Shown: one piece after another, positions 43,003 to 48,048 of the stretch | Layout: the number at the start of each line of letters is the position of its first letter | Position numbering within the stretch: position 1 is the stretch's first letter | NCBI GenBank assembly: GCA_012033595.1 | Contig: JAAUQL010000009.1 | Location: forward strand, 1 to 64,000 | Length of the DNA: 64,000 nucleotides | Source of the DNA: Cyclobacteriaceae bacterium | GTDB taxonomy: Bacteria > Bacteroidota > Bacteroidia > Cytophagales > Cyclobacteriaceae | Direction of reading: 5' to 3' | Program-made: the position numbers and the translations under genes | The notes under the pieces: model-generated | Seen by the model: the letters and a program-made list of their open reading frames with translations, nothing else | Told to the model about the DNA's origin: nothing | The model's database searches: none

Positions 43003-43710
43003 TTATAGATGCAGCCCGCATTCGGTTTTTACCGTTTGAGCCCACCTGCCTTTTCTTTTTTTTCCTTTCAATGTACAATGTTTACACCCTATCGATTCAT
43101 AGCCTAGAGGTTTGAGCGGATGCATTGGCAAATTGTTTTTTTCTATTACACCAAGAGCCTCTTCTTCGCTCACATCAAGGATAGGGTAAAACTTGATGAC
43201 CCCCTTTTTTACTTCAAAAATATTCAGATTTTCCCTGTGGCTGCTTTGCCAGGACATCAATCCTGAAATCCAAACTTCATACTTGTCGCGGATTTTTTCA
43301 AAAGGTTCCACCTTGTTTATATGGCAACATTGGTCAGGGTCGTAACGCCACAATTCACCTATTCTGGAATATTCGTTTTGATCTATATCCGGTGTAATGC
43401 TAATTACATTTAGGTCGAACAAGTTAGTAAGTTTTTCTTTATAATCCAGCGTTTCCTGGAAATGATATGTAGTATCGATGAAATGAACCGGTTGTTTGAT
43501 GCCCGCCTGGTGAAAAAGAAACAATTGGTAAACTGCCGTTGTGCCAAATGAGGAAGTCAACAATACCTTGTCAAAATCTTTGTAGATCTCCTGTATTCGC
43601 TCCACCGGGGTGAGCTTTTTGTACTTTTCGTTCAGCTCGTCCAAATCAGGTTCTGATCCGGTCGCTGAGGTATATTTGGCGGGTACGTTATCTTGCAGTG
43701 CTGCTGGCAT
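43003..43710 (-). CDS. cysH: Adenylyl-/phosphoadenylyl-sulfate reductase, [4Fe-4S] APS type; start likely ATG 43710
   Basis: LLTSSFGTTAVYQLFL, DPDQCCHINKVEP, GCKHCTLKGKKRKGRW, C-terminal ECGLHL. Confidence 0.93.
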   Translation of the reverse strand: MPAALQDNVPAKYTSATGSEPDLDELNEKYKKLTPVERIQEIYKDFDKVLLTSSFGTTAVYQLFLFHQAGIKQPVHFIDTTYHFQETLDYKEKLTNLFDLNVISITPDIDQNEYSRIGELWRYDPDQCCHINKVEPFEKIRDKYEVWISGLMSWQSSHRENLNIFEVKKGVIKFYPILDVSEEEALGVIEKNNLPMHPLKPLGYESIGCKHCTLKGKKRKGRWAQTVKTECGLHL

Positions 43711-43711
43711 G

Positions 43712-44302
43712 TTACGTCGTTGTTTTTTTTGATAAAAACGAAGCGGTAAGCTCGTTGAGGGCATTTACCTTTAGCTGGAAATCTCCTTTTAGCCCATTGC
43801 GATAATTGTGCAGGTTGTCGATCAGTTCCTGAAGGTTTTCCGGAAGAACATCTTCGAGAAATTCCCGAAATCGTTTTGCAAAAGTCGGGGACTTGCCGTT
43901 GGTGCTGATGCCGATTTTAAGATCGCCCTTTTGCACCACCGATCCCAGGTAGAAGTCGCAGAGATCTGGTGTATCTGCCACATTGGTCAATATCCGCTTT
44001 TTACGTGCTTCCACTTTGATGCGCTCATGTAGTTGGCGGTCGTCAGTGGCTAGTATCAGCAGGTCAAACCCCTCCAGATCGCTGGTAAAAAACTTTCGCA
44101 ACAGCAGTTTAATGTTGCTGTTTGCTGCGGCAAGTCGCACTATTTCATCACATATGCGGTCGGCTATGATGGTGACCCTGGCTGCAGGGCTGCTTTTGAG
44201 CAAGGCCTCCAACTTTTCCAAACCAACATTGCCCCCACCCACCAGCAGGGTGTGCAGGTTTTCCAGTTTTAGAAATATCGGATAAAGTTTGTTCTGTCCC
44301 AT
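43712..44302 (-). CDS. Precorrin-2 dehydrogenase / sirohydrochlorin ferrochelatase (CysG N-terminal/Met8-like)
   Basis: YPIFLKLENLHTLLVGGGNVGLEKLEALL; VVQKGDLKIGISTNGKSPTFAKRFRE. Confidence 0.92.
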   Translation of the reverse strand: MGQNKLYPIFLKLENLHTLLVGGGNVGLEKLEALLKSSPAARVTIIADRICDEIVRLAAANSNIKLLLRKFFTSDLEGFDLLILATDDRQLHERIKVEARKKRILTNVADTPDLCDFYLGSVVQKGDLKIGISTNGKSPTFAKRFREFLEDVLPENLQELIDNLHNYRNGLKGDFQLKVNALNELTASFLSKKTTT

Positions 44303-44310
44303 CGTGGTTG

Positions 44311-45081
44311 TTATTGGATATATTCACTTAGCAGATGAGCAAAAGCATCTTTTTTAGTATGTCTCACAATTTCGCCAATCACTATGATGGCCGGCGAGCT
44401 CAAACCCAATATTTTTGCCTCTTCTGAAATCGTAGAAACAGTCCCCAGACCCAACTTTTCGTCAGGCCGGGAACCGTTTTGTACGATAGCTACAGGAGTG
44501 TTGTGTTTGTTCAAATCCCTAAATACGTTCAGGATTTCTTCCAGTTTTTTCATGCCCATCAATATGACTATGGTGGCGCTCGACTGCGCTGCCAGGTGGA
44601 GATCGTGGGTGAGCCTGCCAGATCGCGTAGTGCCTGTCACCACCCAAAAGCTTTCGGCCACACCCCGATGCGTGAGCGGTATATGCTGCATGGCAGGCAC
44701 CGCAAGTGCACTACTGATACCCGGCACAAATGCCGTGGCGATGCCATGGTGTTGAGCCACTTCCATTTCTTCCAGCCCGCGCCCAAAGACGAAAGGGTCG
44801 CCGCCTTTGAGGCGCACTACATGGCCGTGGCTCCTGGTATATTTTACGATAAGGCTGTTTATTTCTTCTTGCTGCGCACTATGCATACCGGCACGCTTGC
44901 CCACAAATAGCCTGAGCGCCCTGTCGGGCACATACGAAAGCAGAGCCTCATTGACGAGGGCATCGTACAATACCACATCGGCATCGGCAAGGGCTTTGAT
45001 GGCTTTTACCGTGATGAGTTCTTCATCGCCGGGGCCTGCTCCTACCAGGGTAAGTTTGGGTATGCGTTCCTTTTGTTCCAT
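44311..45081 (-). CDS. cobA: Uroporphyrinogen-III C-methyltransferase
   Basis: LTLVGAGPGDEELITVKAIKALADADVVLYDALV; VRLKGGDPFVFGRGLEEM. Confidence 0.96.
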   Translation of the reverse strand: MEQKERIPKLTLVGAGPGDEELITVKAIKALADADVVLYDALVNEALLSYVPDRALRLFVGKRAGMHSAQQEEINSLIVKYTRSHGHVVRLKGGDPFVFGRGLEEMEVAQHHGIATAFVPGISSALAVPAMQHIPLTHRGVAESFWVVTGTTRSGRLTHDLHLAAQSSATIVILMGMKKLEEILNVFRDLNKHNTPVAIVQNGSRPDEKLGLGTVSTISEEAKILGLSSPAIIVIGEIVRHTKKDAFAHLLSEYIQ

Positions 45082-47227
45082 TAAACCGCTTTTTCGGTCT
45101 GACTTTCCCGCACTTCTTTTATTTGATTTAGAAAGCCCTTCGCCCTTTGATAAAATGTATTGGCAAAATCTTGGTCCGGCTCGTGTTTGTTGATCTGCAA
45201 CACATGTTCTTTAAAACTGCCTTCTGCGAATTTGAAGGTGCCAGGCTCAACAAATATTCTGTCAAAATCCTGGATCACACTCATTTGAGAGCTGTTTTTA
45301 ACATTTTCGCCCAATAGCATCGCTTTGGCGCTATTCACAAATACGTTGTAGCTGTGGTAGATGGAGTCGGCATAGTTGCCATTTTCCAAGGCCATTGCAG
45401 ACCAGCCGAGTTTCTCTTCGGAGTCGAACAGCAAGGTAGAAACCAGGTCGATAATCACTCCCGCGCATTCCCCAACCGCCGTTTCCACAGCAAAATCTTC
45501 ATTTTTCCCCAGTCGATATAGTCAGAAGGCGTTACCGTGCTCAATTCTGCAAGCGGTTTCAGCAGGGTGTAAAAATACATTTTACCTTGTCGCTTAAAAT
45601 AGTCCTTGTAGTATTCACCATCCAGGCTGTTGCTGTCGTAGTCGTCGAGTAGAGAACGGAGCACTTCCGGTCCTCTTTTGCTGGGCACTTTTATTACCCT
45701 GTCGGCTACTTCACCTTCGCCATCGGTATTGACTCCACCACCGAGCATCACCTGAATAGCAGGCAATACATGCTCGCCATTTTTGATGGAGCTGCCATGC
45801 AATCCTATGGCCGCCATACCGTGCTGACCGCAAGAATTGGGGCAACCGCTTATTTTAATTTTGATGTCCTGGTTGTGGATCAGATCAGGATACTCGTTTC
45901 TGATCACGTCTTCCAGGGCTTTGGCTATGCCTGTACTGCTGGAAATACCCAGGTTGCAGGTGTCGGTGCCCGGGCAGGCGGTGATGTCTGCTGTAGAGTC
46001 GAAGCCCGGCTCTGCCAGACCTGCCGCATTCAGTTCGTTGAAGAGCGGCTTCAGCGCTTCTTTGGTAACGAACTTGAGCAAATAGCCTTGGTTGACCGTG
46101 ACCCGGATGTCGTTTCCGGCGTATTTCTCGGCAATGTCAGCAAATGTTCTGGCCAGATCAGACGACATGTCGCCCAACAGCAACTTTACATACACGCCGT
46201 AGTAGCCTTTTTGCTTTTGTTCGAACACATTGGTTTGATACCATTGATCAAATTTTTTGACATCGTGCACCTCCACCTGGCCATAGTCCGCATGAGCTGG
46301 CAAAGCAGGAATGGCATCAAAAGACTCATGATCTATTGTGTATGTTTTTACCTTCAGGGCTTTTTGTTCTTCGGCTACCAGTCGCAGCAGTTCTTGAAGC
46401 CCCAGGTCATTCAGTAAAAATTTCAATCGTGCCTTTTGTCTTCGCGCACGCTCACCATAGCGGTCGAAAACACGCAACAGGCCTTCGGTAAAGGGGATAA
46501 GTTGGTCTTCGGGCAAAAAGTCATAGGCCAGTTGCGCCAGGAAGGGCTGGGCTCCCAGCCCACCTCCCACATAAACTTTGAACCCGCGGACTTCTTTGCC
46601 ATCGATGGTTTTTATCTTTGGAATTGCGCCCACATCATGTATGAAAGCAAAAGCAGAATCTTCGGTGCTTGACGAAAGGGCGATTTTGAATTTGCGCCCC
46701 ATTTCCTGGCAAACGGGATTGCGCAAGAAATATTCGAAAACGGCATGGGCGTATGGGCTTACGTCAAATGGCTCGTTGGGGTCGATGCCAGCTTTGTCTG
46801 AGGCCGTGACGTTGCGAACGGTATTGCCGCAGGCTTCACGGATGGTGATGTTGTCTTGTTCCAGTTTGGCCCATAGTTCCGGCGTTTTATCCAGGCTTAC
46901 GTAGTGGATTTGTATGTCCTGCCGGGTAGTAGCGTGCAATTTGCTGCTGGCAAATTCATCGGACAGATCGGCGATTTTTCGCAATTGTCTGAAGGTCATT
47001 TTGCCGTAAGGGATTTTGATGCGGACCATCTGCACCCCGGGTTGTCGCTGGCCATATACCCCCCTGGCCAGGCGAATACTCCTAAATTTCTCATCGTCGA
47101 TTTGCAGGTTGCGAAATTGCGATATCTTGTTGGCCAGATCGATAATATCGTTTTCGACCACCGGATTTTCCAAATTTTCTAATTCACTTCTAAAGCTAAG
47201 CATGGTTCTTTTGATTTTTTGGGACAT
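45081..47227 (-). CDS. Ferredoxin-type sulfite/nitrite reductase with C-terminal HEPN-like domain, one frameshift near 45500
   Basis: HATTRQDIQIHYV, NTVRNVTAS, CPGTDTCNLGIS, SGCPNSCGQH; adding one A to the GGAAAAATG run fuses ..YIDWGKNEDFAVETAVGECAGVIIDLVSTLLFDSEEKLGWSAMALENGNYADSIYHSYNVFVNSAKAMLLGE.. Confidence 0.88.
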
Positions 47228-47259
47228 AAAAAAGCCTTCCCCCGATTTTGAGAAAGGCT
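47228..47259 (-). terminator. Intrinsic terminator directly abutting the reductase ATG (candidate attenuator)
   Basis: Minus strand AGCCTTTCTCAAAATCGGGGGAAGGCTTTTTT-ATG. Confidence 0.75.
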
Positions 47260-47314
47260 AGAGATACATCTATTTTTTTTGATTCTAATACTAAAACATT
47301 AGAGAAATAAACCT

Positions 47315-47368
47315 TCATAACCTTTCCCGGAAAATGGCATAGGACAACACCAGTACCAGCAGGCACAT
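47315..47368 (-). CDS. Candidate 17-aa leader peptide MCLLVLVLSYAIFRERL
   Basis: ATG TGC CTG CTG GTA CTG GTG TTG TCC TAT GCC ATT TTC CGG GAA AGG TTA TGA on the minus strand, upstream of the attenuator-like hairpin. Confidence 0.45.
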   Translation of the reverse strand: MCLLVLVLSYAIFRERL

Positions 47369-47439
47369 CGCTTAGATGCTGAGATTTTTTGATTTACGGG
47401 ATCAATAATAAGGTTCATTGGATGATTTTTCTACAATCG

Positions 47440-47476
47440 AATTGCAATTTTACAGCAATAAAAATTTAATTGCAAT
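47440..47476. promoter_or_regulatory. Paired ATTGCAAT palindromes (AATTGCAATT 47440-47449; AATTGCAAT 47468-47476)
   Basis: Direct reading; upstream of the leader ORF. Confidence 0.45.
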
Positions 47477-47586: not shown

Positions 47587-48048
47587 TCAATATTGATCAC
47601 CACTTTTCTTGGGTACGTTCAATTTACCATAGAAATATAGCGAATGGCTGGACACGGTAAAGTTGAACGTTTCCTCTACAAGTTTCTGAATCTCCATTAC
47701 CCTCGGGTCACAAAACTCAAATATCTGGCCGGTATCGGTACAGATTACATGGTCGTGCTGCCTGAAACCGTGCGACTTTTCGTATAGCGACAGGTTCTTG
47801 CCAAATTGGTGTCTTTTTACCAATTCACATTCCAACAGCAAATCCAGGGTGTTGTAAACGGTGGCACGACTCACACGATAATTTTTGTTTTTCATATTGA
47901 TGTAGAGCGATTCTACATCGAAGTGGCCTTGATTGGTATATATTTCCTCAAGAATGGCAAAGCGCTCCGGTGTTTTGCGCAATTCCTTTTCTTCCAAATA
48001 TTTTCGGAACAGTTCCTTTATTTCTTCAAACTTGTCTGGGGCAATCAT
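47587..48048 (-). CDS. Fur-family transcriptional regulator
   Basis: [68 protein letters not shown]. Confidence 0.93.

Follow-up and report, generated by a model that had tools for sequence, protein, structure and literature searches.

The window is the whole stretch of 64,000 nucleotides that was analysed, and all of the features described here lie on its minus strand. A gene for a NirA-like siroheme sulfite (nitrite-type) reductase (45455..47203) is followed by genes for a small operon protein of 135 aa (45081..45488; weak HEPN-domain similarity, below the Pfam cut-off), a uroporphyrinogen-III C-methyltransferase of sirohaem synthesis (44311..45081), a sirohaem synthase N-terminal domain protein (43712..44302) and a phosphoadenylyl-sulfate reductase (cysH; 43003..43764). 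The reductase matched no NCBIfam model at cut-off and its best solved relative was 1zj8; that it would act on sulfite rather than nitrite was taken from the neighbouring genes. By its predicted products, the operon is one of assimilatory sulfite formation and reduction. A Fur-family regulator gene (47587..48048) is located just 5' of the region described below, on the same strand.

Promoter-like element and reductase start

A promoter-like element (47445..47475) was recognized by conservation and consists of TTG (47475-47473), a 20-nt spacer and TAAAATTG (47452-47445). TAAAATTG and the upstream TTG were kept in 5 of 6 aligned genus members, and TTG-N20-TAAAATTG resembles the Bacteroidota -33/-7 consensus. 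The element would place the putative mRNA start ~20 nt 5' of the leader ATG, and the predicted promoter is upstream of the leader; a start downstream of 47315, named in the first-pass annotation as a refutation, is thus not predicted.

The same annotation had started the reductase at the ATG at 47227, directly behind the T tract of a terminator. This ATG is present, but relatives have none at that position; their common ATG corresponds to 47203 (ACCATGCTTAGCTT), 25 nt past the T tract. The terminator has probably created a false gene start at 47227, and makes the reductase start in the window easy to mis-call.

Leader ORF and its reading frame

A 17-codon ORF, MCLLVLVLSYAIFRERL (47315..47368), had been put forward as the leader peptide, with the single Cys codon at its position 2 as sensor. 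Its ATG (47368) and stop codon (47317-47315) exist, but the ORF that relatives conserve ahead of the orthologous reductase (e.g., MNFSINPVNQKISASKRCACWYWCCCMQIFGKGLLGLYR) was in a frame one base off, which at the window locus is open for 39 codons plus stop (MNLIIDPVNQKISASKRCACWYWCCPMPFSGKGYEGLFL*; 47299..47418) and is conserved in 21 genomes of the window's family. In this leader, Cys is encoded at codons 18, 20, 24 and 25 (47367-47365, 47361-47359, 47349-47347 and 47346-47344) within the run C-A-C-W-Y-W-C-C (47344..47367), and Cys-rich runs were present in the same place in 96 class-wide mini-ORFs.

A leader profile was built from nine such peptides and matched 21 genomes of the window's family, with the reductase directly downstream in 21 of 21. 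The peptide motif N.K....R.ACW.WCC was found in these 21 genomes, immediately 5' of the same reductase. A profile match in a genome of another family (L265) was in the interior of a long ORF and was discarded, and among the peptide and Cys-run matches examined in the window's own genome, no further copy with a terminator was found. No family was matched when six leader peptides were scanned against NCBIfam and two against Pfam.

Codon differences among the 21 family loci, given as pairwise counts and hence not as independent events, were 1010 synonymous and 942 nonsynonymous in the leader frame, 318 and 1880 in one of the other two frames and 348 and 1881 in the other. Mean entropy in a 17-codon conserved block was 0.55, 0.24 and 1.07 bits at codon positions 1, 2 and 3, respectively. 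The leader motif varies mainly at synonymous sites, and does so solely in the leader frame. MCLLVLVLSYAIFRERL was rejected as leader, its ATG being present at 8 of the 21 related loci (plus 4 with GTG) and the substitutions in its frame being overwhelmingly non-synonymous; it is thought to be a non-functional, out-of-frame shadow of 47418-47299. Synonymous conservation, suggested earlier as a check on the mini-ORF, failed in its own frame and was found in the overlapping 39-codon frame. Since the frame of MCLLVLVLSYAIFRERL is not conserved, its single Cys codon was dropped as sensor, and the Cys codon run C-A-C-W-Y-W-C-C of the overlapping frame is taken, from the sequence, to be the sensor instead.

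Sulfur genes are classic SAM-riboswitch targets, which favours a riboswitch (e.g., SAM type) or a T-box at this locus. Such an element is extremely improbable: no Rfam match was found at gathering score in the whole 64-kb window, the sole match in the region at a permissive threshold was ncr1575 (E 0.67; 21.8 bits vs a gathering score of 60), and conservation tracks codons rather than an aptamer. Rfam thus gives no riboswitch that explains the hairpin, the kind of match that the first-pass annotation had named as a refutation.

Terminator and antiterminator at the window locus

An intrinsic terminator hairpin (47233..47259) was identified by consensus scan, fold energy and family covariation. 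Its 5' arm is AGCCTTTCTC (47259-47250), its 3' arm is GGGGAAGGCT (47242-47233), and a T tract of 6 T (47228..47233) was read directly from the sequence. The hairpin and its T tract are exactly where they had first been described, as is the antiterminator strand, GGGAAAGGTT (47319..47328), which is complementary to 47259-47250 over 10 positions (8 Watson-Crick, 2 G-U). The first paired base of GGGAAAGGTT is 16 nt past the last Cys codon (15 nt between). Since the 5' arm belongs to both helices, the antiterminator excludes the terminator, as had been claimed, and covariation across loci (below) supports this.

Fold energies were -13.1 kcal/mol for the terminator (z -3.3) and -19.8 kcal/mol for the 79-nt antiterminator segment (z -3.9), and the antiterminator duplex had z -3.4. 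Judged against relatives, both structures at the window locus are far beyond chance. The leader stop codon (47301-47299) is 19 nt past the antiterminator strand, so a ribosome waiting there would mask the strand only at its edge, and masking would have to occur in passing.

Recurrence across Bacteroidia

Of 339 genomes sampled across the class, 83 had the reductase. Up to 4 kb of upstream sequence was taken for 80 loci, and 17 loci from close relatives were added. At 35 of the 97 loci, the 500 nt upstream contained an ORF with a stretch of 9 codons that held at least 4 Cys, against 0.35 expected from dinucleotide shuffles and 1 case in a reverse-strand control. When the set was widened, by loci from a public-genome scan among others, and the Cys criterion was relaxed, 96 Cys-rich mini-ORFs were collected ahead of the reductase across Bacteroidia. 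An intrinsic terminator followed 66 of these 96 (0.4 ± 0.5 in shuffles), and 30 were without a terminator by the criteria used. By family label, these units belong to 17 family-level groups, including isolates of Pedobacter, Mucilaginibacter, Chitinophaga and Reichenbachiella (among cultivable carriers are Pedobacter miscanthi and Reichenbachiella agariperforans), with close relatives over-represented among the loci, so that counts are not independent events. A strict search of the named loci, with the 4-in-9 threshold together with a terminator, returned few units and a search with 3 Cys in 6 codons returned more; the counts therefore depend on the threshold. Many reductase genes had no Cys leader nearby, and the device is therefore widespread but patchy.

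A Cys leader could also act on translation of the reductase, as proposed in mycobacteria, with the hairpin hiding the start region. The 30 mini-ORFs with no recognisable terminator, and the mycobacterial cases that likewise have none, are in keeping with this. A canonical terminator with T tract is present at the window and at 65 other loci, however, and the conserved start codon is 25 nt beyond the T tract, which together make translational control unlikely here.

A blind scan for a Cys mini-ORF followed by a terminator was run over all collected loci (3.75 Mb, both strands counted) and returned 71 units (a few contigs being counted twice), ~68 of them at the head of a reductase operon and on the correct strand; because all scanned loci had been picked for the reductase, the scan informs on position within loci and not within whole genomes. 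Where an aldo/keto reductase or peroxiredoxin gene comes first, the unit precedes it and the reductase follows. Genes identified by eye between attenuator and reductase were a peroxiredoxin in L090, L095, L212 and L219 and an aldo/keto reductase in L092, L098 and L211; these interposed genes would come under the same Cys control. At a few loci, Cys mini-ORFs were seen ahead of homoserine dehydrogenase, metX or cysH genes (named by eye) that precede the reductase. One locus labelled Beijerinckiaceae (Alphaproteobacteria; L216, CAJCIQ010000172.1) has a reductase with 62% identity to its Bacteroidota counterpart and is possibly a mis-binned contig.

Pairing, covariation and spacing

For the duplex test, the best pairing of the hairpin 5' arm with the sequence between the last Cys codon and the hairpin was computed at each locus and compared with 200 shuffles. 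Of the 66 loci, 45 had an antiterminator duplex at p≤0.05, and the median z of the whole set was -2.8. Cognate pairing summed to -837 kcal/mol, compared with -610 ± 20 kcal/mol for re-paired strands and -686 kcal/mol for the best of 5000 permutations. For the 47 loci that do not belong to the window's group, cognate pairing was -572 vs -409 ± 17 permuted, and within the group it was -265 vs -229 ± 8.6 permuted.

Covariation was scored in 21 family members, after their sequences had been trimmed to the two elements and aligned solely on the basis of sequence. In the terminator helix, 95.2% of cells were paired and 13 had double changes, and no shuffle was as high. In the antiterminator helix, 83.6% of cells were paired (reached by 1 of 500 shuffles) and 7 had double changes (reached by 2 of 500); this part of the alignment has 5 weak or misaligned rows among its 21. 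Both pairing and double-change values dropped when either helix was slid by one column. Both stems therefore covary in the family alignment, a check suggested by the first-pass annotation; the antiterminator counts within the family are modest, and stronger evidence comes from the wider permutation test. Close relatives thus conserve both stems and the true leader, even though they do not conserve the mini-ORF first named.

The Fur-family gene ends at 47587 on the same strand, and the hairpin might be no more than its terminator, with the Cys ORF a coincidence. This is very unlikely, because the terminator lies >320 nt past that gene, and because leader, terminator and antiterminator recur with covariation beside the reductase despite unrelated upstream genes.

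Where the duplex was significant (45 loci), the antiterminator strand started a median of 12 nt after the last Cys codon (IQR 9–14), and the start was 7–18 nt past that codon in 91%, vs 24% in the null. The bacterial ribosome protects roughly 10–12 nt past its A-site codon. A ribosome on the last Cys codon would therefore just leave the strand exposed, and one standing two or three codons further on would cover it, a spacing that fits what attenuation needs. The leader stop codon is before the strand in some loci and after it in others (e.g., in G443 the leader stops early and the strand comes after the stop), which indicates that the strand is an RNA element and not a coding feature.

No conserved protector (1:2) hairpin between the Cys block and the antiterminator strand was found (median z 0.17; p≤0.05 in 6 of 45 loci vs 2.2 expected). 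The untranslated RNA should consequently read through by default, and the attenuator was not assigned to the four-segment trp/his-type subclass.

Proposed mechanism

The leader frame, Cys run, terminator, exclusive antiterminator, covariation and spacing, as read from the sequence and from comparison of loci, argue that a ribosome-mediated, cysteine-responsive transcription attenuator very probably precedes the sulfite reductase operon. The proposal of the first-pass annotation that Cys-tRNA supply governs the reductase operon by leader-peptide attenuation is in this respect strongly supported by comparative evidence. In the sequence of events that we infer, RNA polymerase would start near 47440, with a ribosome trailing it on the 39-codon leader. 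When charged Cys-tRNA is ample, the ribosome would clear the Cys run and cover 47328-47319 while the terminator arms emerge; the hairpin 47259-47250/47242-47233 would then form and transcription would halt ahead of the reductase. When charged Cys-tRNA is scarce, the ribosome would be expected to stall at Cys codons 18–25, with its leading edge short of 47328. The freed 47328-47319 would pair with 47259-47250, and the polymerase would read into the sulfite reductase, sirohaem and cysH genes, giving a predicted response to cysteine supply.

Relation to known systems

Leader-peptide attenuation is a textbook mechanism. The trp, his, leu, thr, ilv and phe attenuators likewise have a short ORF with codons for the end product, a terminator and an exclusive antiterminator, one strand of which would be freed by a stalled ribosome. 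In contrast to these, the system described here concerns cysteine, occurs in Bacteroidota, has no conserved 1:2 hairpin, and has relatives with frequent Met codons and with tandem units.

The Rfam leaders compared in PMC3766115 are His, Leu, Thr and Trp only. A 2010 survey (PMC2965389) took Proteobacteria and Actinobacteria to be the only groups with demonstrated leader peptides, to which it added a hisS case from Firmicutes. Cys-rich leader ORFs, without terminators, have been predicted in Mycobacterium and other Actinobacteria (PMC1262725). Cysteine-responsive attenuation is supported in M. smegmatis (Canestrari 2020, doi 10.1111/mmi.14498), as cited in PMC9031893 and PMC13236596, and in these two papers the mycobacterial polycysteine leaders are placed on leaderless mRNA and described as translational. 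Like those described here, the actinobacterial leaders are short ORFs that carry runs of Cys codons and precede cysteine or sulfur genes. They differ in having no recognisable terminator, where a terminator and an antiterminator are present here, and the leaderless ones would differ also from the arrangement predicted here, in which a promoter-like element is upstream of the ORF. Cysteine-sensing leader peptides, so far a matter of Actinobacteria and of loci without terminators, would thereby be extended to transcription termination in another phylum.

Within Bacteroidota, a transcript map of Flavobacterium psychrophilum is described as giving clues for leader-peptide attenuation of amino-acid operons (PMC9723704), and to that extent suspected leader peptides upstream of such operons have a precedent in the phylum; among conserved 5' elements its main text names pheA and hisG, but neither a cysteine case nor one ahead of a sulfite reductase. 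The open-access papers searched, to which our claim of novelty is limited, yielded no description of a cysteine attenuator for Bacteroidota. The recurrence described above points to a main route by which many Bacteroidota could tie sulfate assimilation to cysteine supply. It also marks an annotation gap, as the mini-ORFs fall under gene-finder cut-offs and neither an Rfam nor an NCBIfam model finds them.

Methionine codons, peptide conservation and tandem units

In leaders outside the window's group, Met after the start accounted for 126 of 1306 codons, compared with 52.5 ± 6.7 in shuffles and with 21 and 8 Met in the other two frames of the same leaders; the in-frame Met codons were mostly beside Cys. 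This suggests that some leaders may read methionine as well as cysteine. Met-rich examples outside the window's family were seen in L083, L092, L100 and L136 (MMCCMMC, MCMCMCMCCCM).

In the window's family, N.K....R before the Cys run was invariant in 21 genomes despite synonymous change, and the peptide is therefore conserved beyond what Cys counting alone demands. The leader may thus serve also as a nascent-chain arrest peptide, or may read Met-tRNA too, either of which would refine attenuation by Cys-tRNA supply and not oppose it. The invariance of N.K....R and the excess of Met codons favour this refinement; the peptide motif is confined to one family, however, the Met codons are mainly in others, and the window leader has one internal Met, all of which leave it a tentative addition. 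A broader generalization, with three-segment attenuators across the phylum that read Cys and Met, are often tandem and in the window's family carry N.K....R.ACW.WCC as an aid to arrest, is likewise advanced as speculative.

Two separate leader-terminator units were found at each of seven loci in the stretch analysed for the 96-ORF set. G016 was rejected as a tandem unit, having two overlapping ORFs and one terminator. Two gates in series would make the response sharper. Given the Met enrichment and the tandem copies, both dual sensing and serial gating can be tested directly. With the blind scan included, tandem units ahead of one operon were observed in L080, L084, L086, L088, L092, L095, L098, L105, L115 and L149.
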